Shown: positions 19,569 through 46,513, counted from the first letter of the stretch. The stretch is DNA of 64,000 bases from Verrucomicrobiaceae bacterium (GCA_019694165.1 JAIBCL010000015.1:1-64000), one strand, 5' to 3'. Notes: generated by a model from the sequence alone, not told the origin. Program-made: numbers and translations.

Positions 19569-19613
19569 ATTTGCAAGATTCTACGCACTGCCGTGGAGGC
19601 CATGGTTTGGCCG

Positions 19614-19960
19614 TCATCTACCGGGCTGCTTCCGAACTGCATTCAAGGCACGCAAGATCGCCATGCCAATAACTCCGAGGCCGAGCGCAGCCAGAAAGCA
19701 TCCCTGCATCAGCGCCAGCGCTCCGCGCAACCGAGCGCGAGCAGGCCGAGGAAGATGACGGAGCCGTCACCAAGGAAATCGAGCGCGTCCGCCTTGAGCG
19801 CCTGACTTCTCGCGAGGAAGCCGCCGATGATCTTGACCATACCGAAGCCGAGATTGAGCAGGATCACGACCCATAAAGCGCGCCGGTAGACGGGATCGCT
19901 TGCGGCTCGCTTCTCGTCGGTGTGGCAGGCGCAGGAGTCGTTGTCGGAGGAGTCGCTCAT
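19614..19960 (-). pseudogene. Truncated, frameshifted cation diffusion facilitator (CDF) gene
   Basis: The frame from ATG 19960 gives 83 residues with the CDF start pattern: a Cys/His-rich head (CACHTDEKR), then DPVYRRALWVVILLNLGFG and LKADALDFLGDGSVIFLG. It stops at 19709 after CAERWR. The next frame continues the family sequence (ALALMQGCFLAALGLGVIGM, AILRALNAV) to a stop at 19614, so one frameshift split it. Intact family members continue for roughly 100 more residues; that part is gone at the junction with the phage AAA+ gene. It was probably a metal exporter gene at the end of the island. Confidence 0.75.
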
Positions 19961-20020
19961 GGATTAATGCGTCGCAGGGGTAGAGACATGAGGCTTCTGC
20001 ATGGATATTTGGCAGTGATT

Positions 20021-23000
20021 TCAGCCGAGCGTGGTTTGCAGCGCTCCTTTCCTGAACTCACGACCTCTCAGCCAAAGAAAGATCACGGGCGTGACGATGA
20101 GGATGTGAACCAGGCTAGAGATCATGCCGCCGATGACGGGAGTGGCGAGGGGTTGCATGACTTCGGAGCCTTGGCGGTGGCTCCACATGATGGGCAGTAG
20201 GCTGGCGACGATGGTGGCGACGGTCATGACTTTGGGGCGCAGGCGGAGGCGTGCGCCGTCTTTGACGGCTTGCACGAGATCGGCATACGCGAAGGCGGTG
20301 CCGAGCTGGGCCATGCGGGCCTTCACCGTTTCTTCGAGATACACGACCATGACTACGCCGGTCTGCACGGCGGTGCCAAAGAGGGCGATGTAGCCGACCC
20401 AGACGGCTCCGTTGAAGTTGTAGCCGAGGAGTTTTTGCAGCAGCACGCCGCCACTGAGGGCGAAGGGCACGGCGAGCATGACATGCGCGGCCTCCAGGGC
20501 GCTGTGATAGACGATGTAGAGCAGCACGAAGATGATGAGCAGCACGATGGGGAAGACGATCTGCATGGTCTGCACGAAGCGGCGCTGATTTTCATACTCG
20601 CCGGTCATTTTATAGGTCATGCCTTCCCAGTCGATGGTTTTGAGCTTCTGCTCGACCTCCAGCACGAAGCCGCCGAGATCGCGGTCTTGCACGTTGGCCT
20701 GGACATAGGAGCGGAGGCGTCCGTTCTCGCTGGCGATTTCGTTTGCGCCGACTTCGCGGGTGATCTTGGCGACCATGCCGAGCGGGATGTAGGTGACGGG
20801 CGCGTTGCTCGCGCTTGATGCCATGCCTGCGGCGGGTGCTGCGCCACCGCTCATTCCGCCTCCGCCACCCATCGGTGCGGTGCCGGATGCGCTCATGCCC
20901 TGACGTGCGGCGACGAGGATGCGGCTGAGTTTTTCGATGTCGTCACGCTCGCCGCGCTGCACGCGGATCTGAATGGGGAAGCGCTGGCGGCCCTCAATGG
21001 TGGTGCTGACGTTTTTGCCGCCGATGGCGATCTCCACGGCGTCGAGCACGTCTTTGGCGCTGAGGCCGTAGCGGGCCATGGCCTGGCGATCCACCTGGAT
21101 ATTGAGGTAGGGCTTGCCTTGCACTCGTGAGGGCGAGACTCCGGCGGCACCTTCGATGCTGTTGATGAGTTTTTCGATCTCGAAGGCTTTGTGCTGAATC
21201 TTGTCGAGGTTGTCGCCGTAGATTTTAACGCCGACTTGGGCGCGGATGCCGGTGTAGAGCATGAGGATGCGGTTTTCGATGGGTTGGAGAAAAGCGGGCA
21301 CATAGCCGGGCACTTGCTTCATCTTCTCCGTGAGTTCGGCTTTCAGCTTGTCCACGGTCATGCCCTCACGCCAAGCGGGATTGCGCTTCACGTTCCAGCG
21401 GCCATCGGGGATGTATTCGGGCTTGAGCATGATGGTCGTCTCCAGCATCTCGGTGGGCGCGGGATCGGTGGCGGTTTCAAAACGGCCCAACTTGCCTGCG
21501 ACGGACTCCACCTCGGGCGTGGCCGCGATGACCTTGTCCTGCCAGGACATGACGCGCTGGATTTCTTTGAGTCCGGTCTTGGGCATCATCACGGGCATGT
21601 AGAGCAGGCTGCCCTCATTGAGCGGCGGCATGAACTCCTTGCCAAAACCTGTGACGGCATCGGCGAGGCGTGGATAGCCAGTATCGCGGAGTTGCTTCAC
21701 GGTGGCGCGTGGCAAACCAAAGGCGGTGAGCAAGGCGACGCCGAGAATCATCATCGCCATGCCGATGACGGTTTTGCGATGATTGAGTGCCCAGTTCAGC
21801 GTCGGCCCATAAAGGCGCAGGAGAAACTTCATCACGAGATTGTGCTCCTCGGCATGAAACGGACCGCGCACGAGCAACGAACACAGCACGGGCACCAGCG
21901 TGACCGCAAGCAGCGTGGAACCGATCATGGCAAAGGTCTTGGTGAAGGCGAGCGGGTGAAACAGCTTTCCCTCCTGCCCGCTCAGCGCAAACACCGGCAC
22001 GAAGGCCAGGATGATGATCGCCATCGCGAAGAAGATGGGGCGGCCTACTTGCTTGCAGGCGGCGAGCGTGACGCTCCACGTTTCCTTGGAGTCGAGCCGC
22101 CCTCCTTTCTTCTTCTCCGCCTCCTCACAGTGTCGGATGACATTCTCCGTGACGACGATGGCCGCATCCACCAGCACGCCAATGGCGATGGCGATGCCGG
22201 TGAGCGACATGATGTTGCTGGTGATGCCGAACTCCTTCATCAGCAGGAACGAGATCAAGATGGAGACTGGCAGCGGCATCGTGACGATGAGGATGCTGCG
22301 GAAGTGCCAGAGGAAAATGATGTGGGCGAGCGTGACGAGTATGAACTCCTCCAGCAGCGCGTGTTTGAGCGTGCCGATGGTGTTATCGATGAGTTCGCTG
22401 CGATCATAAAAGGGCCGGATGGTGACGCCCGGCGGTAGGCTAGGTGCGATTTGCGCGATCTTTTCTTTGATGCGCTCGATGACGGCTTTGGCGTTTTCAC
22501 CCGTGCGCATGACGACGGTGCCGCCCACGGCTTCGTGGCCGTTCAGATCAAGCGCACCACGTCGGAAGTCGCCGCCGATCTGCACGGTGGCGATGTCCTT
22601 CAGATAGATGGGAGTGCCTTCCATGGCCTTCACGGTGACGAGTTCGAGGTCTTCCACGCTTGTGACCAATCCGATGCCGCGCAGCACAAACTCCGCGCCG
22701 TTCTCCTCCACCACCTTACCGCCGACGTTGAGATTGGCGTTTTGCACCGCTGTCATCACATCCATGAGCGTGATGTTCGACATGCGCATCTTGGTGGAGT
22801 TCAGCTCCACCTGATACTGCTTCACAAAGCCGCCGATGCTCGCCACCTCGGCCACGCCTTGCACACTAGCGAGCTGGTAGCGCACATACCAGTCTTGCAG
22901 TGAGCGCAGTTGCGCGAGGTCGTAACCGCCATCCTGCGCTTTGGCAGGATCGACATGGAAGTAGTATTGATACACCCAGCCGAGGCCGGAAGCATCGGGA

Positions 23001-23389
23001 CCGAGCTGCGGCTTCACGCCTTCGGGCATGGAGGCTTGCAGGTAGTTCAGCCGTTCCAGCACCCGTGCGCGGGCAAAGTAAGTGTCCACCTTGTCCTCGA
23101 AGATGATCGTGATGAGCGAGAACCCGAACATCGAGGTCGCACGCACTTCTTTGACGCCTGCCAGACCTTGCAACCCGGTGGAAAGCGGGAACGTCACCTG
23201 ATCCTCGACCTCCTGCGGACTGCGGCCCATCCACTCGCCATACACGAGCACTTGGTTCTCCGTGAGATCAGGGATGGCATCGACAGGCGTGAGGTAGATG
23301 GCCCGCACACCGAGCGCGATGAGCAGCAGAGCCGCGCAAGCAACGAGGAAACGATTTTTCAGGCTCCAGTGAATGATGGCCTCGATCAT
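20021..23389 (-). CDS. cusA: CusA-type Cu(I)/Ag(I) RND efflux pump
   Basis: This 1122-residue inner-membrane antiporter (HME-RND) drives metal ions out through the tripartite complex. It starts MIEAIIHWSLKNRFLV, has IPDLTENQVLVYGEWMGRSP typical of CusA, and the TM4 motif IGVLVDAAIVVTENVIRH of the Cu/Ag group. The methionine positions used by E. coli CusA are kept in LLYMPVMMP, TEMLETTIMLKP and NRILMLYTGI. A Gly/Met/Ala-rich insert near residues 835-860 (GGGGGMSGGAAPAAGMASS) is unusual. It overlaps the adaptor gene by 4 bp. Substrate by motif: Cu(I)/Ag(I). Confidence 0.92.
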   Translation of the reverse strand: MIEAIIHWSLKNRFLVACAALLLIALGVRAIYLTPVDAIPDLTENQVLVYGEWMGRSPQEVEDQVTFPLSTGLQGLAGVKEVRATSMFGFSLITIIFEDKVDTYFARARVLERLNYLQASMPEGVKPQLGPDASGLGWVYQYYFHVDPAKAQDGGYDLAQLRSLQDWYVRYQLASVQGVAEVASIGGFVKQYQVELNSTKMRMSNITLMDVMTAVQNANLNVGGKVVEENGAEFVLRGIGLVTSVEDLELVTVKAMEGTPIYLKDIATVQIGGDFRRGALDLNGHEAVGGTVVMRTGENAKAVIERIKEKIAQIAPSLPPGVTIRPFYDRSELIDNTIGTLKHALLEEFILVTLAHIIFLWHFRSILIVTMPLPVSILISFLLMKEFGITSNIMSLTGIAIAIGVLVDAAIVVTENVIRHCEEAEKKKGGRLDSKETWSVTLAACKQVGRPIFFAMAIIILAFVPVFALSGQEGKLFHPLAFTKTFAMIGSTLLAVTLVPVLCSLLVRGPFHAEEHNLVMKFLLRLYGPTLNWALNHRKTVIGMAMMILGVALLTAFGLPRATVKQLRDTGYPRLADAVTGFGKEFMPPLNEGSLLYMPVMMPKTGLKEIQRVMSWQDKVIAATPEVESVAGKLGRFETATDPAPTEMLETTIMLKPEYIPDGRWNVKRNPAWREGMTVDKLKAELTEKMKQVPGYVPAFLQPIENRILMLYTGIRAQVGVKIYGDNLDKIQHKAFEIEKLINSIEGAAGVSPSRVQGKPYLNIQVDRQAMARYGLSAKDVLDAVEIAIGGKNVSTTIEGRQRFPIQIRVQRGERDDIEKLSRILVAARQGMSASGTAPMGGGGGMSGGAAPAAGMASSASNAPVTYIPLGMVAKITREVGANEIASENGRLRSYVQANVQDRDLGGFVLEVEQKLKTIDWEGMTYKMTGEYENQRRFVQTMQIVFPIVLLIIFVLLYIVYHSALEAAHVMLAVPFALSGGVLLQKLLGYNFNGAVWVGYIALFGTAVQTGVVMVVYLEETVKARMAQLGTAFAYADLVQAVKDGARLRLRPKVMTVATIVASLLPIMWSHRQGSEVMQPLATPVIGGMISSLVHILIVTPVIFLWLRGREFRKGALQTTLG

Positions 23390-25080
23390 GGCAGCGCCTC
23401 CCCTGGCTTGATCTCCTTCACGCACTCCAGCATGTCAGCGCCGAAGAAAGGATTGTGTCCCGGTCGTTCACTGGTCTGCACCCAATGCCCAATTTTAGGC
23501 GCTCCATCCACGACACGATCCACCATGTAGCACTCCCAGACTTTGAACTCTGGCATTCCAGCCGCCATGCGCAGCGGCTCCAGCAGCGCAGTGTTTGCCA
23601 TCGTGAACTGATGAAAGGCCACACGCGCTTTTTGGATGTCATCAAAGCCGTGGAAGTGCCGTGCTTTGTCGAGCGCGTCGAGTTTGGGAGCCAGTTCTGT
23701 GCGTGATTTTAGCGCCTCGATCAGCTCGCCCGTTTGCATCATCGCGGGTTCGCTGGCTTTGTTGAATGCAGCCAGATCGTCGGCGGAGAGCGCTGCGGCC
23801 ATCGCATCGGCTACTTGGATGAAATTGGTCAGGGCTTTCTTCTGGTCGTCCGTCAGCGCGGCGACTGGGGCCATTGGCACCGTAGGCGATGCGAAGGAGC
23901 GGTTCATCTCCGCCTGTCCGTCGATGAGCAGGTTGCCATTGGTCACAATTTTGTCGCCCGCCTTGATGCCGGAGAGCACTTCCAGCAGCGCATCTCCACG
24001 CCGCCCAATCTTCACCACGCTGCGGGCATACGCGCCGCCGCCTTGATCGACATACACCACGGCTTCGGGGCCGGTCTGCATGACGGCGGATTTTGGCAGT
24101 GTCAGCACCGGAGGGATTTCCACAGCCACGGCACCATCGGCATAAAGACGATGCAGCAGTTCGCGGCGACCGTTCACGAGCGGATTGGGCAGTTCCACAC
24201 GCACTTGTGTGGAGCGCGAGGCTTCATCGAAGTTCGGGTCAATGAAGGTGATCTCGCCGGTGAAAACTTTGCCTGGCACCGAGGGCGTGGTCACATCCAC
24301 TTTTTGCCCGATCTTGATCCAAGGCATGTCCTGCTCATACGCGCGGAATTGAAACCACATCACGCTGAAGTCGGCGATGGCAAAGAGCTTCTGGCCCATC
24401 GTCACATACTGGCCCTCATAGACATCGTGCTCGACGACCGTGCCGGTGAGCGGAGCCAGAATCTCAGAGGTCAAGGCGTCGGCGGGTTTCTTTTCCAGCG
24501 CTTCGATCTGCTCCGGGGTCAGTCCCATCTGGCGCAGACGCAGCGCCGTGTTTTTTTTCAGATCGCCCGTGAGCTGGCGATACTCGCGCTCGGTCTGCAA
24601 AAGTGTGGGGCTGTAAAGCAAGGCCAGCGGCTCGCCGGCGACGACTTCCGCGCCATGATGATTGGCGAAAAGCTTGTCCACACGCCCATCGACATAGGCG
24701 CTGATGATGCGGTGGCGGCGTTCATCATCGTCCATCACGCCTGCCACGCGCAGCGTCTTCGTGAGCGGCTGGATTTTCGCCTCGGTCGTTTCGACACGCA
24801 TGATTTGGATTTGATTCTGCGTAAGCGGGATGACATCGCCACCAGCGGCGTCGAAACCTTTTTCGCCTTCGTAAACGGGCGTCAGCTTCATGCCGCAGAT
24901 GGTGCAGCGGCCTGGTTTGTCGCTCTTGATCCAAGGGTGCATGGCGCTCTGATAAAAGAGCACCTTGCGCTCGCCGGATGACGCGGGCGTGGTCATGAAA
25001 ATGTCACCGAAGTTGCCACGCAAAAACCAGCCTCCGACAAGCGCGGCGATGATGAGAAGAAAGGCGATAAAGTTTTTCAT
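23386..25080 (-). CDS. cusB: CusB-type periplasmic adaptor with N-terminal heavy-metal-binding domain
   Basis: The 564-residue membrane fusion protein starts MKNFIAFLLIIAALVGG, an uncleaved anchor or signal. A heavy-metal-binding domain follows with YQSAMHPWIKSDKPGRC and ICGMKLTPVYEG, the CxxCGM pattern found in CusB-like adaptors. Next come the barrel-sandwich, a short helical hairpin (LLQTEREYRQLTGDLKKNTA) and the beta-barrel domain. The last 150 residues are a DUF3347-like helical domain rich in His/Met, sometimes fused to such adaptors. The frame is open to 25146, but MKNF gives a proper N-terminus. Confidence 0.9.
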   Translation of the reverse strand: MKNFIAFLLIIAALVGGWFLRGNFGDIFMTTPASSGERKVLFYQSAMHPWIKSDKPGRCTICGMKLTPVYEGEKGFDAAGGDVIPLTQNQIQIMRVETTEAKIQPLTKTLRVAGVMDDDERRHRIISAYVDGRVDKLFANHHGAEVVAGEPLALLYSPTLLQTEREYRQLTGDLKKNTALRLRQMGLTPEQIEALEKKPADALTSEILAPLTGTVVEHDVYEGQYVTMGQKLFAIADFSVMWFQFRAYEQDMPWIKIGQKVDVTTPSVPGKVFTGEITFIDPNFDEASRSTQVRVELPNPLVNGRRELLHRLYADGAVAVEIPPVLTLPKSAVMQTGPEAVVYVDQGGGAYARSVVKIGRRGDALLEVLSGIKAGDKIVTNGNLLIDGQAEMNRSFASPTVPMAPVAALTDDQKKALTNFIQVADAMAAALSADDLAAFNKASEPAMMQTGELIEALKSRTELAPKLDALDKARHFHGFDDIQKARVAFHQFTMANTALLEPLRMAAGMPEFKVWECYMVDRVVDGAPKIGHWVQTSERPGHNPFFGADMLECVKEIKPGEALP

Positions 25081-25084
25081 GGGA

Positions 25085-26353
25085 TTAGTTGCCCTGGGAT
25101 TTGAGATGGCCGCCTGTGAGGGCGGTGAGCGCTTGCGCGGCGACATGCCGAGCCGTCAGCGCGCGTTTTTGCTCCTGTCGCGCCTCCAGGAGTGAGCGCC
25201 GCGCATCCAGCACTTCGAGCAGCGTGGCCTTGGATGACACCCAGGCGTTTTGAAGGGTCTCCACCGCTTTCACCGTCTTCGGCAGCACCTCGTCGTTGTA
25301 TGCCCTGACGGTTTGCTGGTTGTTTTGCGCCTCGGTGAGAAGCGTGGTGATTTGCGAGTAAAGCTCCCGCTGCTGCGCGGCGAGATCACTGCGGCTGGCA
25401 TCACGCAAGCTCTCCGCGCGTGCGATGTCCGCCTTGTAAACGGAGCGATTGAACCACGGCAGCGTCATTTTCACGGCGAACATGGCGTCACGGAAATCAC
25501 CGCCGGAATAAGTGTTCGTCTCGACGCCGATGGAGAAAGCTGGTTTGCGCTTCTCCCGCGCAGCATCCGCCTCCGCCTGCGCGCCCTCGATCTGATGACG
25601 CATGACGGCGAGCTGCGGATTGTCCTTCTCCAGCCGCGCTTTCAAAGCCGTGGCAGTGGCGAGTTCAGACGCATTGCCATCCAGGACCAGGGATTGCCAA
25701 GGCGTGTCCGCTGCACGTCCCAGCAGCAAATTCAGCGTCGTGCTGAATTGCACGCGCTGCCGTTTGAGGGACGCGAGGGTTTGCGCGCGCATGGCAAGCT
25801 CGCTCTCCAGTCGCAGCGTCTCCGTGGCAGTGGCATCCGGGTTCTTCGCCCGCTCCTCGGCAGTCTTCACGATGGTTCGCAGCCAGACGAGATTTTCGGT
25901 TTGCAGGCGGATCAGCTCATCTGCCAGCGCAAGTTCCAGCACAGCCTGACTGACGGAAAGCCCAAGCTCCGCCGCTGTCTGCTGCCGCATGGATTGCCGC
26001 ACCTGCTGTTCAACGGTCGCGCGGCGTTTCTCCGCCTTGTAGAGGCCGGGACGCGGCAGCATTTGATCAAAGCCGACAAAGACATCCCCATCATCCTGCC
26101 GCATCGAGCGTCGCGCAGCGGTGAGGCCGAGGCCGAGTTGCGGGTCTTCCCAGAGCCGCACAGCTCCAATGGCGGATTTGGCGGCCTGCGTTCGCGCCTC
26201 TGCGGCTGCGATGGAAGGATGCGTGGTGACCGCCTCCTGGATCAGACGGTGGATGAACTGCGGCGCTGCAACCGTGGTGCTGTCTTCGGCCTGAGCCGTT
26301 AAAGCAGCTGCCAGGGACAGCGCCAAGGCAGAGAGTGGTGATGATGTCTTCAT
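25085..26353 (-). CDS. cusC: CusC/TolC-type outer membrane efflux protein
   Basis: The 422-residue protein starts with the signal peptide MKTSSPLSALALSLAAALTA and carries two repeats of the outer-membrane efflux fold, with long amphipathic helices such as LRLESELAMRAQTLASLKRQ and LLTEAQNNQQTVRAYNDEVL. It would form the exit duct of the Cus system. The open frame extends upstream to 26557 but lacks any signal there. It lies 4 bp upstream of the adaptor gene in a compact CBA order. Confidence 0.88.
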   Translation of the reverse strand: MKTSSPLSALALSLAAALTAQAEDSTTVAAPQFIHRLIQEAVTTHPSIAAAEARTQAAKSAIGAVRLWEDPQLGLGLTAARRSMRQDDGDVFVGFDQMLPRPGLYKAEKRRATVEQQVRQSMRQQTAAELGLSVSQAVLELALADELIRLQTENLVWLRTIVKTAEERAKNPDATATETLRLESELAMRAQTLASLKRQRVQFSTTLNLLLGRAADTPWQSLVLDGNASELATATALKARLEKDNPQLAVMRHQIEGAQAEADAAREKRKPAFSIGVETNTYSGGDFRDAMFAVKMTLPWFNRSVYKADIARAESLRDASRSDLAAQQRELYSQITTLLTEAQNNQQTVRAYNDEVLPKTVKAVETLQNAWVSSKATLLEVLDARRSLLEARQEQKRALTARHVAAQALTALTGGHLKSQGN

Positions 26354-26435
26354 TGAGTCCTCATGGAAAAAGCTTCGTTTCGGGTCCGTGCCGCGCGAGA
26401 CGCGGGCACAATGCTCCTGGGAAAACGAGGCTTTG

Positions 26436-26798
26436 TCAGATGAGGAGGGCGCAATGCAGCGCCAGCGCAGGCGGGCAATGCGGCAGGAAGGCATCCGGTG
26501 CCAGCAACCGTAGCGGCACTTGGGAAATGAGCGAGCAGAGTGGCGGAGGCAGCACACCTGCGATCACGGACATGAATTTGATCTCCTGTGTGTGAGGCGC
26601 GGGAGTCGCCGGAGCTGGTTTTGCCGGTGACTCGCTCGGAGCCTTTCCGCACTCACAGATGGCACCGGAGCAGCAAGGCAGCGAGCAGCGGACGGCTGCC
26701 TTCTCCGGTTTGCATGGAGAGCCTGGCACAAAAGCACCCGCCGCCTGCGTCATCAGGAAGATGGCGGTGGTGAGGATTCTGAGCCAGGCGTGTCTCAT
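26436..26798 (-). CDS. Secreted Cys-rich leader protein of the Cus-type operon
   Basis: This 120-residue protein has a signal peptide (MRHAWLRILTTAIFLMTQAA) and a cysteine cluster CSLPCCSGAICECGK near residues 38-52, then a Pro/Ala-rich part and a hydrophobic C-terminus. Similar secreted small proteins head the other two efflux operons at 39431 and 45688. A periplasmic metal-sensing or buffering role (like CzcI) is inference from that repeated place. Confidence 0.6.
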   Translation of the reverse strand: MRHAWLRILTTAIFLMTQAAGAFVPGSPCKPEKAAVRCSLPCCSGAICECGKAPSESPAKPAPATPAPHTQEIKFMSVIAGVLPPPLCSLISQVPLRLLAPDAFLPHCPPALALHCALLI

Positions 26799-27209: not shown

Positions 27210-27782
27210 TCAGGCGGCCTGTTTCGCCAGCGTCTCCCTGAGCATCTGCCGTGCGCGGTAGATGCGGACTTCGACGGCTTTGGCAGAGCAGCCGAGGGCC
27301 GCAGCCACTTCGGCGTGGCTCATGTCTTCGACGGCGAAAAGCAGCAGCGCCTCACGCAGATCAGCAGGGAGAGTGGCGATGGCTTGATGCACCCGCGCGG
27401 TCTTCTCCCGCAGGGCACTTGCTTCATCTGGAGAGGGCCGCGTGTCGGGCGGCTCGTGGAGCATCGAGCCTTCATCGTCGGTGAGCGGCACGGTGGGGTG
27501 ACGGCTTTTCCAACGCGCGTGGCTGCGAGCGAGATTCGCGGCGATGTGGAAAAGGTAAGTCGAAAAAGCGGCGGTGGGCCGGTAGCTGTGACGGCTGGTG
27601 TAAAGCCGCACAAAGCTCTCCTGCGTGAGATCCATCGCCGTCGCATGATCGCCCGTCATGCGCAAGAGGAACGCGGCCACACGCTCACGCCAGCGGGACA
27701 TGAGCGCGTTCAGCGCAAGGTCATCGCCGCCGGCGAGGCGCTGCATGAGCGTGATGTCGTCGTCATCGGTGGAGGCGATCAT
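27210..27782 (-). CDS. ECF RNA polymerase sigma factor (CnrH-like by context)
   Basis: The 190-residue protein has sigma region 2 (MDLTQESFVRLYTSRHSYRP, FSTYLFHIAANLARSHAR) and region 4 (DLREALLLFAVEDMSHAEVA, ALGCSAKAVEVRIYRARQML). It would direct RNA polymerase to stress or metal-response promoters. The transcription order anti-sigma, sensor, sigma equals cnrY-cnrX-cnrH of Cupriavidus. The candidate targets are the paired GAGGGGTT/GTTGCACA sites on either side of the cassette. Confidence 0.88.
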   Translation of the reverse strand: MIASTDDDDITLMQRLAGGDDLALNALMSRWRERVAAFLLRMTGDHATAMDLTQESFVRLYTSRHSYRPTAAFSTYLFHIAANLARSHARWKSRHPTVPLTDDEGSMLHEPPDTRPSPDEASALREKTARVHQAIATLPADLREALLLFAVEDMSHAEVAAALGCSAKAVEVRIYRARQMLRETLAKQAA

Positions 27783-27797: not shown

Positions 27798-28274
27798 TTA
27801 ATGTCCGCCGGACATGGGCGCTGCGTCCGTTCCAATGATTTGCGGCAGCATGGCATCCAGATATTTTTTCGACTGCTCTGGCGACATGACGGCGGCGGTT
27901 TCATGCAGGTGCTTGAGCAGCGCTCTCTGGCATTCGAGATGCACGGCAGCCTGCTGCTGAAGCGCCGCTTCGAGTTCAGGGGAGGCGATGTTTCCAGTGG
28001 CCGCGAGCGCCATCACCTTATTGTGCGCGGTGGCTACTTTCATGCACAAAGCCTCGCATGTGGGACGGTAGGCGCGGTGCATGGCGGAGACTTTGGCAAA
28101 CTGCTCATCGGAAAGTTTCATCTCATGGTGCAGCCACTCCAGCTCCGGGAGCAAGGTGCCGCCATCGTGCGTTGCTGTGGCGCTGCGTTCGCAACTGCAT
28201 TGACGGCGCGTAACCACGAACCCGGTGACACCGACGAGCAGGGCAACGAAGACAATCAAAAGACCGCGTTTCAT
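27798..28274 (-). CDS. CnrX-like periplasmic metal sensor
   Basis: This 158-residue protein has one N-terminal membrane anchor (LLIVFVALLVGVTGFVV) and a periplasmic helical domain: LPELEWLHHEMKLSDEQFAK, MHRAYRPTCEALCMKV and HLECQRALLKHLHETAAVM. His, Met, Glu and Cys in these helices are placed as in CnrX/Spy-type sensors, which bind Ni/Co. It overlaps the anti-sigma-like gene by 4 bp and lies 15 bp before the sigma gene. The metal it senses is not certain. Confidence 0.78.
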   Translation of the reverse strand: MKRGLLIVFVALLVGVTGFVVTRRQCSCERSATATHDGGTLLPELEWLHHEMKLSDEQFAKVSAMHRAYRPTCEALCMKVATAHNKVMALAATGNIASPELEAALQQQAAVHLECQRALLKHLHETAAVMSPEQSKKYLDAMLPQIIGTDAAPMSGGH

Positions 28275-28579
28275 TCCGGCATGGAGCGATGCACCGCTTT
28301 CAGAGGATTGATGGAGGCGATGTAAGCGCTGCGCATGGCTGCGCTCTCATCCGGGGCGGTGAGGCCACCGAGACCGATGCCTAGAACCAGCGTGGCCGTG
28401 ACCGTTGCCAGTGCGGGCGCGGGTCGTGCCATCCACTGGAACAAGTGCCGCCAGCGCGCCGCCCATGACTGCTGCTCGGCTATCGCGATGCGCGCCCAGA
28501 CCTCACGCTGGAAGGAAACCGGAAACTCAGGCTTTGGCTGAGTCTGGCGGATCAGGGAATCAAACTCGTCGTCATTCAT
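28271..28579 (-). CDS. Probable membrane-bound anti-sigma factor (CnrY-like by position)
   Basis: The 102-residue protein has a short cytoplasmic N-terminus (MNDDEFDSLIRQTQPKPEF) able to bind a sigma factor, one membrane segment (ALATVTATLVLGIGLGGL) and a short periplasmic tail. I chose ATG 28579; the open frame reaches 28708 but runs through a hairpin. The order with CnrX-like and sigma genes makes an anti-sigma role likely, although sequence similarity is weak. Confidence 0.65.
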   Translation of the reverse strand: MNDDEFDSLIRQTQPKPEFPVSFQREVWARIAIAEQQSWAARWRHLFQWMARPAPALATVTATLVLGIGLGGLTAPDESAAMRSAYIASINPLKAVHRSMPE

Positions 28580-28614
28580 GCTGGGAAAGATGGCGGATGA
28601 TGCATTGAACTCAA

Positions 28615-28642
28615 CCCGCCAGGTCATCCGATGCCTGGCGGG
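28615..28642 (-). terminator. Hairpin between the secreted Cys-rich gene and the anti-sigma gene
   Basis: CCCGCCAGG and CCTGGCGGG form a 9-bp stem with a 10-nt loop, 16 bp past the stop codon at 28659 in the minus direction. There is no long U-tract, so it may be an attenuator or RNA-stabilising hairpin instead of a terminator. Confidence 0.55.
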
Positions 28643-28658
28643 CAGGTTTGGTTGGAAC

Positions 28659-28946
28659 TCAGTTCGCGCAAACCTTGCGCTCTTTGGTGTCGCAGCTCTT
28701 GCCGGCATGAGGCGCAGCGCACCCGGTGTTGCACGTCACGTTCTTGTTCACTGTTACGCCTTTGCCGGAGGCGTTCGGCATGACGACGTTGCGCGTGTCG
28801 CAGCAGGATTTGAAGGCAGCCTTGACAGGCGCGCTAGTCCTTGACGGAGCGGCCGGGAAGTAATTCCAGTCACGGCCAGCAAAGGCGCTGGTGGAACTGA
28901 TGCCGACGATAAGAGCGGCAGCGAGGAGGGTGAGTTTCGTTTTCAT
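28659..28946 (-). CDS. Small secreted Cys-rich protein
   Basis: A 95-residue protein with a signal peptide (MKTKLTLLAAALIVGISSTS, AFA) and six or more cysteines in the mature part (KSCCDTRNVVMPN, VTCNTGCAAPHAGKSCDTK). It probably binds metal in the periplasm. The A/C-rich leader CAAAATCAAACCCAACC ends at the ATG. The candidate ECF promoter at 28991-29020 lies 45 bp upstream, suggesting control by the neighbouring sigma factor. Confidence 0.68.
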   Translation of the reverse strand: MKTKLTLLAAALIVGISSTSAFAGRDWNYFPAAPSRTSAPVKAAFKSCCDTRNVVMPNASGKGVTVNKNVTCNTGCAAPHAGKSCDTKERKVCAN

Positions 28947-29455: not shown

Positions 29456-29457
29456 AG

Positions 29458-37996: not shown

Positions 37997-38018
37997 GGGA
38001 TGGAAAAAGGGGTTCAGG

Positions 38019-39320
38019 TTATTTGCCTGTGCGCATCGTGGGCTTGGATGCGCGAGTGGATTTGAAGGGACTGGTTTCAGGAATGGCGACGGGTTGCGGT
38101 GCGGGCGCGGAACGCGTCGCGGCCTCGTAGCGGATGCGCGCGAGGTGGTAGTCGCGCGTGGCATCGAGCACGGCGGCTTCGAGTTGCAGCCTTTGATCCC
38201 GTGCGCGCAGCACGGTGAAGAGGTCGGTCTGGCCGCTCTCATAGGCTTTCTCCAGCTTGGCCGTCTGCTCGTTGACGAGCGGCAGCAGCTTGTCCTTCGT
38301 CTCAGCGGCGAGCGCGGCGTTCGCCTTCATCTCATTGAGCGCGGCCTGGGCTTCGTTTGCGATCAGCGAGCCGAGCGCCTTCGTCTCCAGCGCCGCGCGT
38401 TGGGCGCTCGCGGTTTTCTCGGCGATCTCGCCCTCGTTCTTGTTCCAAAAGGGAAGTGGGATGGAGACGCGGAAACCAAGGAACCCCGTGCGCGACAATC
38501 CCTCCGGCGCATCCTCCATGCGCTCGCCCTCCAGGACCGCGCCGACGGAAATGTCCTCCCATTTCTTCGAGCGCGCGAGGTCGATGTCGGTGAGCGACGA
38601 CTCCTCCTTCAAACGTGCGAGCTGGTAGTCCGCGCGCTGTTCCCAGCCACGCATCGCTGCCACGCTTTTCATCGCGGGCAGCTCGCCTGTGACAGAGAGA
38701 TCGCTCTGCGATGACAGGCCGAGCTTGGGTTTCAACTCGCCAATGAAACTGACGCGCTCCGTGTCCAGCTTGCGGCCTTCGAGCAACAATCGTTGCGCGT
38801 CCACCTGAGCCTGCGCGGCATCCAGCGCGGAGAGTTCCCCGACAGCGGCGCGTCCTTTTGCAAAGTCCGCGAGCTTGGTCGCCAGTTCCATCTGCTGCTT
38901 TCGCAATGCGCGCTGTTGCTCGATGGAAAGCAGCCGCACCGCTAGTGTCTGCGCCTCCGCGATGATCTTGCGCTCCATCTCGCGCACTTCGAGTTCCGCA
39001 GCGGCGACGAGTTGCGCGCTGAGTTGTTTCTCCAGCCGCAGTCGCGCAGTGACGGGAAATTTTTGGTCGAGCGACAAACCAATGGCTCCCTCGCCGAAAC
39101 GCGGATCGTGCTTCAAATCAAACCCAGCCTCCGGGTTGGCGCGTCTCCCCGCGCCGAGAAGACGACCGCGCGCCTCCTCGATGCTGAGCCGGGCGGCGGC
39201 GAGGTCGGGGTTATGCTGGACTATGCGTTGTGCGATGTCCGGGATTGAAAGCGTGAGAGCCGATGCCGACGAGGCGGCAGCCAGCAGCAGGGAAGTGAAA
39301 AGGAAAGATGAACGAAGCAT
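38019..39320 (-). CDS. CzcC/TolC-type outer membrane efflux protein
   Basis: This 433-residue protein has a signal peptide (MLRSSFLFTSLLLAAASSAS), two outer-membrane efflux repeats with long amphipathic helices (SIEEARGRLLGAGRRANPEA near the start, ALNEMKANAALAAETKDKLL later) and the SRTGFLGFRVSIPLPFWNKN segment typical of CzcC. It would provide the outer-membrane duct of the second system. Confidence 0.87.
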   Translation of the reverse strand: MLRSSFLFTSLLLAAASSASALTLSIPDIAQRIVQHNPDLAAARLSIEEARGRLLGAGRRANPEAGFDLKHDPRFGEGAIGLSLDQKFPVTARLRLEKQLSAQLVAAAELEVREMERKIIAEAQTLAVRLLSIEQQRALRKQQMELATKLADFAKGRAAVGELSALDAAQAQVDAQRLLLEGRKLDTERVSFIGELKPKLGLSSQSDLSVTGELPAMKSVAAMRGWEQRADYQLARLKEESSLTDIDLARSKKWEDISVGAVLEGERMEDAPEGLSRTGFLGFRVSIPLPFWNKNEGEIAEKTASAQRAALETKALGSLIANEAQAALNEMKANAALAAETKDKLLPLVNEQTAKLEKAYESGQTDLFTVLRARDQRLQLEAAVLDATRDYHLARIRYEAATRSAPAPQPVAIPETSPFKSTRASKPTMRTGK

Positions 39321-39977: not shown

Positions 39978-40412
39978 TTACTCGTCGCAGATGCAGGCGT
40001 ATTCGGGATTGCTGCATCCTTTGCAGGTGTGCAGCGCGAGCGGAATGCGGAAGTTTTTCGACTTCGCGTCCGCTGTGGTCTTGACTTGCACGACGACTTG
40101 GTAGCCTTCGCCTTCGGGCAGCGGAGCTTTGGAGACGAGAAGGTTGCCTTTCTTCTCGAACTCGATCTTCGCTTTGCCACCGGGGGCTTCGGCGGTGGCG
40201 GTGACGGTTTGCGCGGCGGCTGGCTGCGCCTTCATCGCAGCATCGTAGAAGGCGATGCTGATGGTGCGGTCTTTCTCAACGAAAAACTCGGCGTTCTGAC
40301 CGGTGAGTTCGAGGACGCGGCCTTTGCGCGGCCCGGCTTTGACGGTTTTGTCGGCGAGCGCGGGCGCGATGGCGAGGGCAGTGATGGCGAGGATGTGGAG
40401 CAGTGTTTTCAT
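39978..40412 (-). CDS. Secreted metal-binding protein following the first RND pump
   Basis: The 144-residue protein has a signal peptide (MKTLLHILAITALAIAPALA), a beta-rich body with FFVEKDRTISIAFYDAAMKA and a C-terminal cluster CKGCSNPEYACICDE. The plan matches the protein at 33059 (FFVTKDKKVEIRFVDDDNK, CPTCKNKEYACTC), so the two are paralogues. It overlaps the pump gene by 4 bp. A periplasmic metal-handling role is likely. Confidence 0.7.
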   Translation of the reverse strand: MKTLLHILAITALAIAPALADKTVKAGPRKGRVLELTGQNAEFFVEKDRTISIAFYDAAMKAQPAAAQTVTATAEAPGGKAKIEFEKKGNLLVSKAPLPEGEGYQVVVQVKTTADAKSKNFRIPLALHTCKGCSNPEYACICDE

Positions 40413-43400
40413 GGTGTGTTTGTTTGTGGTTTGGTTTTTCTTTCAAGCCACTCGTAGAGCAACGGCACGACGAGCAGGGTGAGGAAAGTGGAGGTGATGA
40501 TGCCGCCGATGACGACGGTGGCGATGGGGCGCTGGACTTCCGCGCCTGCGCCGGTGGCAATCGCCATCGGGAGGAAGCCGAGCGAGGCGACGAGCGCGGT
40601 CATGAGCTTGGGGCGCAAACGGGTGAGTGTTCCCTCGACAACTGCATCGCGCAGATTGCGGCCTTGCTCGCGGAGCTGGTTGATGAAGCTGATGAGCATG
40701 ATGCCATTCAAGACCGCGATGCCGCTGAGGGCGATGAAGCCGACAGCCGCGCTGATGGTGAAGGGCATTCCGCGCGCGTGCAGCGCGAAGATGCCACCGG
40801 TGACGGCGAGCGGCACGCACAGGAAGATGAGCGCGGCCTGCCGCAGCGAACCAAAGCTCAGGAAGATGAGCACGAAGATCAAACCGAGAGCGAGCGGCAC
40901 GACGATGGTGAGCCGTGCCTTGGCTTCTTGCAGATTCTTGAACTGGCCGCCGAACTCGAAGTAATAGCCGTCGGGGAATTTTACTTTCTCGCGAATCAGT
41001 CGCGTGGCTTCCTCGACAAAGCCTGCGGTGTCACGTCCGCGCACGTTGATGAGAACGGAGACGCGCCGCTGGGTGTCCTCGCGCGCGATCTGGTTCACCT
41101 GATCCACGAGCTTCACCTTCGCCACCTGACCGAGCGCTAGCAGGCTGCCCTCCTCGGTGCGCAGCGGGAGGCGCTCCATCGCGCTGAGATCGGCGCGGCG
41201 GTCTTCGGCGAGCCGCACGATGATGGGCGTGCGGCGGTTGCCCTCGATGAGCGTGCCAACTTCCGCGCCCGCCAGCGCGGTTTCGATCAGACGGTTCATG
41301 TCGTCGGCGTGGACGTTGAATTTTTTCATCGCAGCGCGGTCGGGCTGCACCTCGATCATCGGCACCTTGCCGATGGCGTCGAACTCCGTCTCGCTGCCGC
41401 CGGGCAGGCTGTTGAGGACGGAGGTGACTTCTCCGGCGAGGCGTTCAAGTTCGTCGTAGTTCTCGCCGAAGATTTTGCACAGCAAGTCGGCGCGCGCTCC
41501 GGCCATGATCTCGTTGAAGCGCATCTGGATGGGCTGCGAGACGAGGATGTTCTGCCCCGGCACCTGATCGAGCAACCGCTTCCGCATCAGATCGCCGAGC
41601 GCTTCTTTGGCGATGGGCTTGCCATCGACCTGCCGCCATGTCTCGCGCGCATTGAGCATGACGTAGGTGTCGGACACGTTCGGCCCCATCGGGTCGGTGG
41701 CGACTTCCGCCGTGCCGATGCGCGAGAAGACATCGCGCACCTCGGGGAACTCACGGCGCAGCACGGCCTCGCTCTGCTTCTGCAAGTCCACGGACGAGGA
41801 AAGGCTGGCGCTGCTGCTGCGGATGAGTTGCAGGGTGAAGTCGCCCTCGTCGAGTTGCGGGATGAACTCCGCTCCGAGGCGCGAGAAGATAACCAGCGAC
41901 CACGCAAAGAGCGCGAACATCGGCAGCACGATGAGCCAGCGGAAGCGCAGGCCGAAGGAGAGCAGCGGCGTGTAAATGCGCTTCGTTAGCGTGACGAGCC
42001 AGTTGTCCTTCTCCTTGATCTTGCCGCCGAGCAGGAAGGAGCACAGCACGGGCATCAAAGTGAGCGCGAGCACCAACGAACCGCCGAGCGCGAGCATGAC
42101 GACGACGGCCATCGGCTTGAACATTTTTCCCTCGATGCCTTGCAGCGCGAGGATGGGCAGATAGACGACGGTGATGATGAGCACGCCGAAAAACATCGGG
42201 TTGGCGACTTCCTTGGCCGACTTCAAAACTTCGCGTGCGCGCTCCTCAGCCGTGAGCCTGCGGCCCAGCGCGTGCTGTTTCTCGCCGAGATGACGGACGA
42301 TGTTCTCGACCATCACGACCGCGCCATCAATGATGAGGCCAAAGTCCACCGCGCCGAGGCTCATCAAGTTTCCAGTCAGATGCATCTGCACCATGCCGGT
42401 CATGGCGAAGAGCATCGAGAGCGGGATGACGAGCGCGACGATGAATGCGGCGCGGAAATTTCCCAGCAGCAGGAACAGCACGACGACAACCAGCAGCGCG
42501 CCTTCGCTGAGATTCTTCTCCACGGTGTGGATGGTGCGGTTCACCAGCTCGCTGCGGTCATAGACGGGACGGATGACGATGCCGGGCGGCAGCTTGCGCT
42601 GGATTTCCTCCAGCTTCGCGCGCACGGCCCCGGCAACGAGGCGGGTGTTTTCCCCCGCGAGCATGATGGACGCGCCGACCAGCGCTTCTTCGCCCTCATG
42701 CGAGCTGGCCCCGGTGCGGAAGGCGGAGCCGATGCCGATGGCGGCGACTTCGCTCAGCAGGATGGGCTGCACGCCCGCGCCGAACTTGAGCGGAAGCTGC
42801 GCGATCTGCTCCGCCGTGGTGACTCGGGTAGGAGAGCGCACGATGAGCTGCTCGCCGCCGATCTCGACATAGCCGCCGCCCGCGTTGCGCGTGTTTTGCT
42901 CGACGATCTCCGCGAGGCTGTCGAGCGAGAGGCCCGCCGCCGCGAGACGCGCGGGATCGGGCTGAATGACGATCTGCCGCTCGTAACCGCCGCTGGTGTT
43001 CACCTCCGCCACGCCCGGCGTGCCTCGCAGCAGCGGCTTGACGGTGTATTCGTGAATCTGCCGCAGTTCCATGAGCTGGGCATCGCGCGTCGCGGGTTTG
43101 TGCGGCGCGTCGGCAGTGTAGTCGAGCGTGTAATAGAAGATTTCGCCAAGCCCGGTGGCGACTGGCGCGAGCTTCGGCGTGAGGCCGGGCGGCAGTTCGT
43201 CGAGCACGCCTTGCAACCGTTCGGTGACAAGCTGCCGTGTGCGATAAAGATCAACGCCGTCCTTGAACGTCATCGTCACCTGGGAGAGGCCGAACTTCGA
43301 CAGCGAGCGCAACTCAACCATGTCGGGCAGACCCGCCATCTCGCTTTCGATGAGGAAGCTCACCAACTTCTCGACCTCCTCCGGCGCGAGCGCAGGGACG

Positions 43401-43555
43401 GCGGTGTTGATCTGCACCTGCGGATTCGTGATGTCCGGCACCGCGTCAATCGGCAGATGCAGCGCGGCCCATGATCCCACGCCGATCAACACGAGCATGG
43501 CAAGCATCACGGCGGCGCGCTGCCGCATCACGAGATCGAGAAGGAAATGCAGCAT
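40409..43555 (-). CDS. CzcA-type HME-RND efflux pump
   Basis: This 1048-residue pump starts MLHFLLDLVMRQRAAVMLAM and has IDAVPDITNPQVQINT and the TM4 motif DFGLIIDGAVVMVENIVRH, as in CzcA-like Zn/Co/Cd exporters. Later segments include EFIPQLDEGDFTLQLIRSSS and GFIALSGIAVLNGIMLISFI. It is part of a leader-C-B-A-small protein operon and overlaps the following small gene by 4 bp. The motif points to divalent cations, but the exact metal is not proven. Confidence 0.9.
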   Translation of the reverse strand: MLHFLLDLVMRQRAAVMLAMLVLIGVGSWAALHLPIDAVPDITNPQVQINTAVPALAPEEVEKLVSFLIESEMAGLPDMVELRSLSKFGLSQVTMTFKDGVDLYRTRQLVTERLQGVLDELPPGLTPKLAPVATGLGEIFYYTLDYTADAPHKPATRDAQLMELRQIHEYTVKPLLRGTPGVAEVNTSGGYERQIVIQPDPARLAAAGLSLDSLAEIVEQNTRNAGGGYVEIGGEQLIVRSPTRVTTAEQIAQLPLKFGAGVQPILLSEVAAIGIGSAFRTGASSHEGEEALVGASIMLAGENTRLVAGAVRAKLEEIQRKLPPGIVIRPVYDRSELVNRTIHTVEKNLSEGALLVVVVLFLLLGNFRAAFIVALVIPLSMLFAMTGMVQMHLTGNLMSLGAVDFGLIIDGAVVMVENIVRHLGEKQHALGRRLTAEERAREVLKSAKEVANPMFFGVLIITVVYLPILALQGIEGKMFKPMAVVVMLALGGSLVLALTLMPVLCSFLLGGKIKEKDNWLVTLTKRIYTPLLSFGLRFRWLIVLPMFALFAWSLVIFSRLGAEFIPQLDEGDFTLQLIRSSSASLSSSVDLQKQSEAVLRREFPEVRDVFSRIGTAEVATDPMGPNVSDTYVMLNARETWRQVDGKPIAKEALGDLMRKRLLDQVPGQNILVSQPIQMRFNEIMAGARADLLCKIFGENYDELERLAGEVTSVLNSLPGGSETEFDAIGKVPMIEVQPDRAAMKKFNVHADDMNRLIETALAGAEVGTLIEGNRRTPIIVRLAEDRRADLSAMERLPLRTEEGSLLALGQVAKVKLVDQVNQIAREDTQRRVSVLINVRGRDTAGFVEEATRLIREKVKFPDGYYFEFGGQFKNLQEAKARLTIVVPLALGLIFVLIFLSFGSLRQAALIFLCVPLAVTGGIFALHARGMPFTISAAVGFIALSGIAVLNGIMLISFINQLREQGRNLRDAVVEGTLTRLRPKLMTALVASLGFLPMAIATGAGAEVQRPIATVVIGGIITSTFLTLLVVPLLYEWLERKTKPQTNTP

Positions 43556-43558: not shown

Positions 43559-44287
43559 TCAGTGTCCGCAGGTGCAGGCTTTGCCGCCGCGCAGCACTTG
43601 CAGCTCCGCAAGCCACAGCGACATGACGGGCGTGGTCACGATCTGGTCGCCAGAGTAAAGGCCGTCGGTGATCTCCACCAGCGCGTCATTCATCGCTCCG
43701 GTCTTCACAGGCGTGCGGACATAGAATGAGCCGTTCACCGCATATACAAAGATGCCCTCCGCTGTCTTGAGCAACGCGGAGCGCGGGATGGCCGCCACCG
43801 CATCACCGGCGGGCGCGTGGAAGGTGGCCTTCAAGCGCGCGCCAATCGTGAGCGGCTGTGTGGTGGTGATGGTGATCTCGTAATCACCCAGCGCGCCGAA
43901 AGGCGGCTGCTCCACGCGCTGCACCATTCCCTTGATCGCGGGTGCGTTGCCCTCCGCTTGCAACTCCACTTCCTCTCCCGCCTTGACCTGCGCGGCCTGC
44001 CGCGGTGCGAGCCAGCCGCCTGCTTCGTTCGGTTTCATCGCGCTGAGATTCACTGTGAAGGCGGAGGCGACCTTCTCTTCACCCACGTCGGCGATTTGCA
44101 GGACGATGGCTTTCTTCATCTCGTCAGTGAGCGAGAGTCCCTCGCCTTTCTTGAACTGCGCGCCGTTCTCCGGCGCGGTTTTGTGTTCCGCGCTGGCGGC
44201 AGCGGCGGTTTTTGAGCAGGAGCTTTGGAGCGTGGCGATGCCGAGCGCAATGGCGCTGGCGAGCATGAGCATGGCTGTGTGTTTCAT
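43559..44287 (-). CDS. Short periplasmic adaptor lipoprotein (CzcB-like)
   Basis: Only 242 residues, against about 400 in the second system. It has a lipobox-like LQSSC, a beta-barrel region (LTIGARLKATFHAPAGDAVA), a proximal domain (ALVEITDGLYSGDQIVTTPV) and a Cys/His end (GGKACTCGH). The helical hairpin and most of the barrel-sandwich are missing, so it must reach its partners differently. It lies between the OMF and pump genes with gaps of 6 and 3 bp. The reading frame is intact, so it is a short form and not a broken gene. Confidence 0.75.
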   Translation of the reverse strand: MKHTAMLMLASAIALGIATLQSSCSKTAAAASAEHKTAPENGAQFKKGEGLSLTDEMKKAIVLQIADVGEEKVASAFTVNLSAMKPNEAGGWLAPRQAAQVKAGEEVELQAEGNAPAIKGMVQRVEQPPFGALGDYEITITTTQPLTIGARLKATFHAPAGDAVAAIPRSALLKTAEGIFVYAVNGSFYVRTPVKTGAMNDALVEITDGLYSGDQIVTTPVMSLWLAELQVLRGGKACTCGH

Positions 44288-44293: not shown

Positions 44294-45550
44294 TCAGGGT
44301 TGTGTTTGAGTTTTGACGGCGGGTGCGCCGATGAGTTGTTCGAGATCGAGCGCAGCGCGCAGCACTTCGAGGCGCGTGGCGTTGATGGCTTCCGTGGCTT
44401 CGAGATACTTGTCCTGCATCTCGATGTAAGTGCTCAGCGGCACGGCACCGAGCCGGTAATGGCGATCCGCGAGCTGCGCGGCCTCAGCGAAGGATTGCAG
44501 CGCGTTTGGTTTCCATCCATCGAGCCGCTTCTGTTGCGTCTGCATGATCAGCCATGCCTCTGTGATCTGGCGCTCCACTTCGCGCAGCGCGGATTGCAAC
44601 GATGCCTCCGCCTGGATGCGTCGCGCCTCGGCGGCGTTCACCGCAGGTTGGCCGTTGTTCCAAAGCGGCAGCGGCACTGAGAGCGATAGGCCAATGATCA
44701 TTTCCTTGTCGCCCGCGCGCTCTTGGGATAGGGAAGGCCCGACGCTGAAGGTCGGGTGGCGCTCGTTCTTAGCGAGCGAGACCTTGAGTCCCTGTTGCTC
44801 CAACTCGCTGCGCCGGACACGCAAATCGTAATTATGCTCGGCAGCGGTGTTGAGCAACGCGGTGAGCGTGGTGGCGGAAGGTTTGGGAAATTCCGCGCGC
44901 TTCACTTGCAACGGTGTGTCCGCGCGGCGGCCCATAAGCTGATTGATTTCCAGAAGCGCCTTCTGCATCTCCACCGCTGCCTCGCCCGCTTTGCGTTGCA
45001 CGACGACTTCGGTGGCCTCGATGATCTTCGCCTCCAGCGCAGGCGCGATGCCGCCCGGCTCCCGTTGCACGATGACCTCGCGGACACTGGTGAACCGGTC
45101 GGCCACTTCCGCCGCCGCCGCCGAGTTCTCCTGCTGCGTGGCAAGCGCATAACCCAGCACTTTCACCTTGGCCGCGAGGAAGGCTTTGAACCTTTCCAGC
45201 CCCAGTTCCGCGAGAGCCATGTCACGATCTGCGATGGCCTTGCGCAATCCCAGCCGTCCCGGCCATTCGATGGGCTGCGCGAGCGCCACCGAATACGCCA
45301 GACCTTCCGCCCGCGCATCTCCACCGCGCACACGCTTGTGGCCGAGGTCGAGGCTCAGTTCTGGATTGGAGAGTCGGCACGCCGTGGCGCGACCTGCCTT
45401 TGCCGCCGCGATCTCCGCTTCATAGAAACGAATCTCGGGATTGGCCGCGAGCGTCTTGGTGACGAGATCGGAAATGGAAACAGCGGCTGCCTTGTCCGCC
45501 GCGAAGGCAGGCAGACAAAGCAGCAAGGAAGAAAGGACAATGGAACGCAT
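44294..45550 (-). CDS. CzcC/TolC-type outer membrane efflux protein
   Basis: The 418-residue protein has a signal peptide (MRSIVLSSLLLCLPAFAADK) and two outer-membrane efflux repeats (SNPELSLDLGHKRVRGGDAR, EVERQITEAWLIMQTQQKRL) with the PLPLWNNGQPAVNAAEARRI segment. It would be the duct of the first efflux system. ATG 45550 is chosen; an open frame to 45646 lacks a signal sequence. Confidence 0.87.
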   Translation of the reverse strand: MRSIVLSSLLLCLPAFAADKAAAVSISDLVTKTLAANPEIRFYEAEIAAAKAGRATACRLSNPELSLDLGHKRVRGGDARAEGLAYSVALAQPIEWPGRLGLRKAIADRDMALAELGLERFKAFLAAKVKVLGYALATQQENSAAAAEVADRFTSVREVIVQREPGGIAPALEAKIIEATEVVVQRKAGEAAVEMQKALLEINQLMGRRADTPLQVKRAEFPKPSATTLTALLNTAAEHNYDLRVRRSELEQQGLKVSLAKNERHPTFSVGPSLSQERAGDKEMIIGLSLSVPLPLWNNGQPAVNAAEARRIQAEASLQSALREVERQITEAWLIMQTQQKRLDGWKPNALQSFAEAAQLADRHYRLGAVPLSTYIEMQDKYLEATEAINATRLEVLRAALDLEQLIGAPAVKTQTQP

Positions 45551-45687
45551 GATGAAAAGATTGGGATTGGCGAGCAGGCATGAAGGAGCCTCGACAAGAG
45601 GCACGCAGATGACACCGCTAAACGGGTGTGCATCACTCCGGCGCATTCATTCACCGCCTCTCCATGACGGCGTTGCGCACGGATAAC

Positions 45688-46077
45688 TCAGGCGAGTTCC
45701 GAAGGAGCTCGCGCGAGCAATGCCGCACGGCTCACAAAGACCCACGTCGGCCGCAATTCAGGCGGCGCAGTGGTCATCAAAGGAACAGGCGCGCTTTTCG
45801 CCGCTGCCAATTCATTCAAGCGCACCAACTTTTGGATGATGCCGGTGAGTTCCACCATCTGCATTTCCGGCATGATGACAGGTGCAGGCAGTTGACTGCG
45901 TGCAATGGTGTCGCTCGGGCACGCCTTGGGTTGCGCTGGAGCATCGCGCTCCTTATCCGGGTTGGAACAGCAGCCACACTCCTCATTTGCGGCCTGCTGT
46001 GGCCCCAGACAGCACGCCGAAGCCGGCACCATGAGGGCCAGCAAGAAGAATGCGAGGATTTGCCAGAGGCGGTTCAT
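45688..46077 (-). CDS. Secreted Cys-rich leader protein of the first RND operon
   Basis: A 129-residue protein with a signal peptide (MNRLWQILAFFLLALMVPAS), a Cys cluster (ACCLGPQQAANEECGCCSNP) and a helical C-terminus with Met residues (PVIMPEMQMVELTGIIQKL). It has the same position and plan as the leader proteins at 26436 and 39431. It probably binds metal in the periplasm; exact role unknown. Confidence 0.58.
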   Translation of the reverse strand: MNRLWQILAFFLLALMVPASACCLGPQQAANEECGCCSNPDKERDAPAQPKACPSDTIARSQLPAPVIMPEMQMVELTGIIQKLVRLNELAAAKSAPVPLMTTAPPELRPTWVFVSRAALLARAPSELA

Positions 46078-46513
46078 TTGCGGGATCGGCACCTAAACTC
46101 GCCGACGAGAATGGATGTTCAAGCACGTTGTTGCTCCTTTTTGAGCGCAGATCGCCTTTAAGTTCGTCCGGTTCAATTCTCACGAAGCATCAGTAACGAT
46201 GAGTGATGAAAGCAGCGTGCAGATGCCCGTTCGCGCGAAAACCTGCGGAGGAAATCTATTCCCGAAAACCCGCCTGACCTCGGGAGGAAATCCCCCCTCT
46301 CAAATCGTATGAGGATCAAATTTTCAGCTTTCCACTTTTTTCACCACAACTGCGGGCATTAAGCCCTACAAACGTGTCCGATGTGCGATGCAATAACCGG
46401 CATCACCAGGCATGGAGACGCATCCAAACGAACTTCCAGAGGCAAATCTGACGCGCCGCTAAAACTCCGAAAGTGTAAAGTTGAGTGGCAAATGGTCACC
46501 TCATTTGTCTTGA
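46078..46513. other. Gene-free stretch at the island/phage boundary
   Basis: No convincing gene is visible. The stretch is more A/T-rich than its flanks and has a two-copy repeat (CGAAAACC... GAGGAAATC at about 46236-46255 and 46263-46291) and a pyrimidine run near 46330. It should contain the promoter of the first RND operon and the right boundary of the metal island. I could not find terminal inverted repeats or a clear target duplication. Confidence 0.5.

Follow-up and report, generated by a model that had tools for sequence, protein, structure and literature searches.

A multi-pump heavy-metal island as probable accessory cargo at a defined slot of a Verrucomicrobiaceae phage lineage

How does a large block of heavy-metal efflux genes come to lie between two halves of a phage? 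The question is raised by a 64,000-nucleotide stretch of DNA (hereafter the window; bases 1-64000 of the 170 kb contig C3) from the 7.8 Mb, 66-contig genome of a Verrucomicrobiaceae bacterium. An initial annotation had phage packaging and early genes ending at 19568 and replication genes restarting at 46514, with nothing but metal-handling genes on one strand in between and a truncated CDF gene at one edge. Gene identification bore out each part of this layout (Table 1): a GP7-family major capsid protein (MCP) gene through to an AAA ATPase gene (AAA2) on the left, a DUF559 gene followed by a DNA polymerase A module on the right, and, between them, identified genes that are all metal-related and all on the minus strand, with an N-terminal CDF piece at the left border. 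In our reading, which we hold with considerable confidence, a temperate tailed phage residing in the chromosome carries the island as accessory cargo, in a dedicated and repeatedly refilled slot between AAA2 and the DUF559 gene.

Table 1. Features of the window and of related elements (window coordinates unless a contig or locus is named).
Feature	Position	Strand	Evidence or remark
MCP, GP7 family	305..1213	-	PF20911 5.7e-33; 99% identical in sister prophage C50
S49 head protease	1238..2512	-	PF01343 1.2e-27
Portal protein, lambda type	2910..4451	-	PF05136 2.1e-43
Endolysin-like protein	4903..5484	-	phrog_9589 8.3e-7
Terminase large subunit (TerL, GpA type)	5736..7562	-	PF05876, PF20454
Terminase small subunit (TerS)	7555..8160	-	phrog_57 4.9e-13
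Element-specific palindrome	10121..10138		exact copies also at 47792, 49803; one-mismatch copies at 1438, 4774
p10768, most conserved early gene	10768..11385	+	88-94% aa identity across genera
Early genes: DNA ligase, amidoligase, GATase, AAA1, ligase-like	12270..18411	+	
AAA2, AAA ATPase; 3' end is left edge of cargo slot	18618..19568	+	PF00004 5.3e-26
Truncated CDF transporter, 83-aa N-terminal remnant, island left edge	19709..19960	-	
CusA-type RND permease	20021..23425	-	TIGR00914 1020 bits; PDB CusA 1e-238
CusB-type adaptor with heavy-metal-binding domain	23386..25146	-	PF16576, PF19335
Outer-membrane factor (CusC type)	25085..26557	-	PF02321
ECF sigma factor	27210..27782	-	PF04542, PF08281; TIGR02937
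Putative anti-sigma membrane protein	28271..28708	-	suggested by adjoining sigma factor and one hydrophobic segment in translation
Small membrane-anchored protein, CnrX-like by position only	29054..29542	-	accompanies island in relatives
P1B-type (Zn/Cd-like) ATPase	29458..31422	-	TIGR01525 600 bits, TIGR01512 526 bits
CzcA-type RND permease, second system (CzcA2)	33629..36796	-	TIGR00914 779 bits
RND adaptor, second system	36800..38242	-	PF16576
Outer-membrane factor, second system	38019..39320	-	PF02321
CzcA-type RND permease, third system	40409..43555	-	TIGR00914 1218 bits
Short adaptor, third system	43559..44287	-	TIGR01730 2.6e-14, below cut-off
Outer-membrane factor, third system	44294..45646	-	PF02321
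Right slot edge; homology to sister prophage restarts at 46275	46275..46513		blastn
DUF559 endonuclease-like gene	46514..46951	-	PF04480; phrog_503 2e-32
Replication module: DNA polymerase A, AAA_25 protein, helicase, PD-(D/E)XK/DUF2800, AAA_24	48780..57219	-	
Second cargo region near right end: DrmD-like helicase, type III methyltransferase	58753..64000	+	restriction subunit next on contig
Palindrome core	C3 10123, 47794, 49804, 74363; C50 157682, 179962, 181963, 204575		
Palindrome core	C36 876, 13537; C54 998, 13686		
Structural-gene-free element loci	L161-L163, L177 (G028:C11); L164, L175 (G028:C17); L191 (G031:C50)		

The window lies in a tailed prophage of about 90 kb, most of it on C3. 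Terminase, portal, capsid and protease genes are present in the order of a tailed-phage head module, and the large terminase subunit has relatives at 85-86% amino acid identity in genomes G012, G030, G031, G033 and G047. A sister element in the same genome, on contig C50, is 88-94% identical in nucleotide blocks to window positions 1-19536 and 90% identical to 46275-50437. C3 and C50 each break at the capsid gene, and two further contigs, C36 and C54, open with homologous 15 kb tail modules that end in a tyrosine integrase (PF00589); tape-measure and tail-fibre profiles were seen directly in a relative (G033:C45), to whose tape-measure protein the corresponding protein of the C36/C54 module is 38% identical. 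The figure of about 90 kb assumes that C3 pairs with C54, as assigned by elimination. The sister element measures about 72.4 kb and is bounded by a 14-bp attachment (att) core, GTTCGATTGGCAAT, that splits a leucine-rich-repeat (LRR) gene. The integrase of the window's element lies at its end, adjoining tRNA-Leu, and the contig runs on beyond; a search for this element's own attachment core found none, and a 10-bp match in the tRNA-Leu anticodon loop was dropped because the host tRNA half was absent on the other side. Of the two carriers initially envisaged, prophage or phage-plasmid, the prophage is favoured, the sister element having integrated at a specific site in the chromosome, and no observation speaks for the phage-plasmid. 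We infer that the 90 kb form can be packaged and induced.

Outside the slot, the two elements of this genome also diverge. The window's DNA polymerase is a separate 656-aa gene (48780-50750), whereas that of the sister (L008:174-5000) is fused to a BT4734-like N-terminal domain to give 1608 aa, and the replication module therefore differs between them. The window's second cargo region scored as DrmD (1.4e-212), MTase_III (1.5e-169) and REase_III (4.3e-205) in PADLOC, and this variable region continues over C3 64001-74039, with Sir2-, UmuD- and DinB/DnaE-like genes recognised by eye; its counterpart in the sister holds a type I methyltransferase with HsdS/HsdR-like neighbours.

The island itself spans ~26.7 kb and comprises three CusA/CzcA-type RND systems, a Zn/Cd-type P1B ATPase, an ECF sigma factor, small accessory proteins and the CDF remnant. 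All three permeases exceed the TIGR00914 cut-off for heavy-metal RND pumps, each with an adaptor and an outer-membrane factor, and the ATPase scored 600.5 bits in TIGR01525 against a cut-off of 346.25. A CnrX identity for the small protein beside the ATPase was dropped, with no match in family-profile or PDB searches. Judged by these protein families, the island would confer heavy-metal resistance on the lysogen: in the prophage state, with its own ECF sigma factor, it would act through three tripartite RND exporters and the P1B ATPase. A composite transposon was rejected for the lack of any transposase among the island ORFs scanned and of long flanking direct repeats among the matches listed. 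A plasmid collection searched with the island returned only short similar fragments, and thus no near plasmid source.

The initial annotation had proposed looking in related genomes for the same phage modules without this island, and for the island elsewhere. Both were found. AAA2 has named relatives in Prosthecobacter and other Verrucomicrobiaceae and more distant ones in Chthoniobacter, and it bounds the slot on the left, with the DUF559 and DNA polymerase genes on the right. In the sister element this slot holds a different 12 kb cargo, with an RND permease (66% nucleotide identity to the window's third), an outer-membrane factor, a NicO transporter and a multihaem cytochrome, and near-empty slots of about 0.6 kb and 1.5 kb occur at loci L218 and L210. 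The island is present in the AAA2 slot at no fewer than seven loci: it fills the slot in G012:C4, G028:C11 and G033:C45, and island genes adjoin AAA2 in G049:C170, L217 and the IMG/VR viral contig L141, which encodes TerL as well. Gene order in G028:C11 is that of the window, while G033 lacks the Cus block, which in G012 lies elsewhere. Among 44 AAA2 loci with enough downstream sequence, eight carry at least two metal-island homologues (the sister's different cargo counted). Other copies of the slot contain unrelated cargo, such as an MkoA-like helicase with kinase- and phosphatase-like genes (the latter identified by eye), or KaiC-like and restriction-like genes (also by eye). In G012 (L157, L158 and L160, on C4, C9 and C11), two slot-bearing contigs end within one gene, p9856, near which the contig with the sole structural module begins.

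Islands of largely the same gene order are also found in chromosomes; the stretches examined there, of 20-60 kb, contained no phage marker. In a tree of CzcA2, slot-borne islands fall in three places among the chromosomal ones, and the supported branches need at least three changes between phage and chromosome, which may reflect several captures, or captures together with losses; an ATPase tree was more poorly resolved. Since the island lies in chromosomal stretches without phage genes and at least three changes are needed, capture or exchange recurred. Metal cargo in the slot is thus recurrent, with more than one acquisition. A comparison of G033 with G012 adds timing: the backbones are 79-85% identical in nucleotide sequence and the islands 91-95%, so the cargo moved after the backbones diverged.

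Several observations direct attention to the 3' end of AAA2. The 3' ends that we compared share a final motif and then diverge immediately. Counted by eye, some 30 incomplete AAA2 copies across the family retain the 3' end, compared with very few internal 5' pieces, and such 3' fragments separate successive cargo units in relatives. In G049 a complete AAA2 is followed by a 2.7 kb unit, then by a 3' fragment of AAA2 and finally by the metal island; the fragment and the start of the island are 96-100% identical to the AAA2 end of G033, and the full AAA2 of G049 is 73-97% identical. In L184 (G047:C138; 4180-14608) cargo units are separated by three 3' fragments of AAA2, all pointing the same way. 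At the right edge of the slot no obvious anchor was seen. With 3' fragments between units and islands more alike than backbones, cargo exchange probably proceeds by recombination at the AAA2 3' end. In the mechanism that we propose, an incoming unit would bring its own AAA2 3' end and recombine at the resident one, so that older cargo would end up further downstream, set off by a residual 3' fragment; the slot would thereby be refilled repeatedly with host-type metal islands, helicase/restriction-like genes and signalling genes, in phages and in structural-gene-free relatives alike. The broader proposal, that the AAA2 3' end is a cargo-loading site for phages and satellites, at which units of "3' end plus cargo" pick up host metal islands and build displaced arrays, we advance tentatively, at somewhat less than an even chance.

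The relatives that lack structural genes share the early genes and the slot with the phage, and an integrase with replication genes but no structural genes was shown for G028. On three contigs (G028:C11, G028:C17 and G031:C50) a related integrase lies directly beside p10768, with no head or tail genes beside it. These integrases are 82-95% identical among themselves and about 51% identical to that of the window's genome. No close terminase or capsid match was found anywhere in G028, and G031 has a terminase match on another contig. One of these elements, G028:C11, carries the island. They look like satellites or deletion derivatives.

A palindrome common to the two phage parts and missing from the island had been reported initially, and it recurred in our counts: CGTTGCGCAACG, at no more than one mismatch, has five occurrences in the window where 0.53 would be expected (none of 100 shuffles gave as many), with copies on both sides of the island and none inside it. 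The palindrome TTCGTTGCGCAACGAA is likewise missing from the island, and its 14-bp core has 12 copies in the whole 7.8 Mb genome, all on C3, C50, C36 and C54, that is, on the two related phage elements; the reversed control gave 0. The palindrome (14-18 bp) adjoins the integrase at one end of the element and an Xis-like gene at the other, likewise in relatives, and it is a candidate operator or partition site. That palindromes adjoin the integrase in the full phage and in the structural-gene-free forms would fit a regulator common to both, and the shared palindromes are at most suggestive of mobilisation of the G028 and G031 forms by a helper phage.

Other explanations can be set against these readings. 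For cargo entry, a site-specific recombinase, in place of homologous recombination, could recognise the 3' end of AAA2 as an attachment site; cargo junctions do lie at, or a few bases from, the stop codon of AAA2, whose end is made whole again by each insertion. However, the 5' breakpoints of the AAA2 fragments vary, from about residue 165 to 261, a motif scan revealed no recombinase in the cargo units, and between G033 and G012 identity climbs stepwise through AAA2 towards its 3' end, as in homologous exchange, leaving the recombinase improbable. The joined structure might alternatively be a chimera of phage and metal contigs, produced in assembly or binning, as a 66-contig genome with breaks inside phage repeats could invite. 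The same type of AAA2-island junction recurs, however, in independently assembled contigs (G033:C45, G012:C4, G028:C11, G049:C170 and the IMG/VR contig behind L141). Because G033:C45 spans MCP and head genes, AAA2, island and DUF559 in a single contig, the IMG/VR contig links terminase and island, and near-empty slots exist, an assembly join is very unlikely, and we give the chimera almost no credence.

The nature of the carrier invites two further alternatives. The window's element could be a defective remnant, with the island a chance arrival in a prophage no longer functional and not travelling by phage. It is some 17 kb longer than a sister whose capsid protein is 99% identical, and it may therefore exceed the capsid's capacity and be defective; several relatives, moreover, are without any head and tail genes. 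Yet in neither element of this genome are the head, tail, integrase or Xis-like genes interrupted, and the island recurs at the identical slot in several diverged elements and in a terminase-encoding viral contig, such that we regard decay followed by chance entry as unlikely. A second possibility, not favoured but with a somewhat better claim, is that the block of AAA2, slot and polymerase is an independent satellite-like integrative element for which head and tail genes would be optional, as the three contigs with integrase beside p10768, the lack of TerL and MCP matches in G028 and the palindromes beside the integrase in both forms might suggest. Against this, block and packaging module adjoin in one constant order in the window's genome, in G033 and G012, in IMG/VR contigs and in the isolate Chthoniobacter flavus, and the short form could arise by deletion of the structural block.

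Comparable arrangements are known elsewhere. In E. coli, P2-like phages and P4-like satellites are described as having hotspots for antiviral cargo (PMC9122126); they share with the present slot variable cargo at a fixed place flanked by conserved phage genes, in phages and structural-gene-free relatives, and other copies of the Verrucomicrobiaceae slot likewise hold helicase/restriction-type genes. They differ in the recurrent cargo, here a large multi-pump metal island, and in the host family, here Verrucomicrobiaceae; the present slots measure about 19-36 kb and have the 3' end of an AAA ATPase gene as their anchor. A viral contig from chromium-polluted soil, VC-2, is annotated with heavy-metal RND efflux genes (PMC8240259); that study lists genes on contigs, whereas here a complete island is tracked across genomes in a defined, shared slot for which sister and near-empty versions are known. 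Streptococcus phage phi-SsUD.1 encodes a cadmium-type P-type ATPase (cadA) 46% identical to that of the island, but the match is a cadA-annotated cation ATPase and not a tripartite RND system, in an unrelated host. Verrucomicrobia phage P8625 infects the same phylum and, of the listed INPHARED terminase matches, had the best E-value; at 25.6% identity, and with a 33 kb genome, it is too distant for the same family. Matches to RND pumps in INPHARED phages were set aside: all stay below 60% identity, and many come from records resembling host contigs ('Acinetobacter phage MD-2021a', Salmonella assemblies) or from unannotated faecal contigs. Titles, abstract openings and keywords in the literature yielded no account of this phage family or slot, which falls short of proving that none exists.

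The locus thus reveals a phage lineage which, together with structural-gene-free relatives, repeatedly carries a large host metal island at one defined site, and it offers a concrete route for the spread of metal resistance in a phylum that has received little study. A testable anchor for how phage cargo arrays form is provided by the AAA ATPase gene at its 3' end. If that end is indeed the loading site, phages would regularly carry multi-pump metal resistance among Verrucomicrobiaceae.
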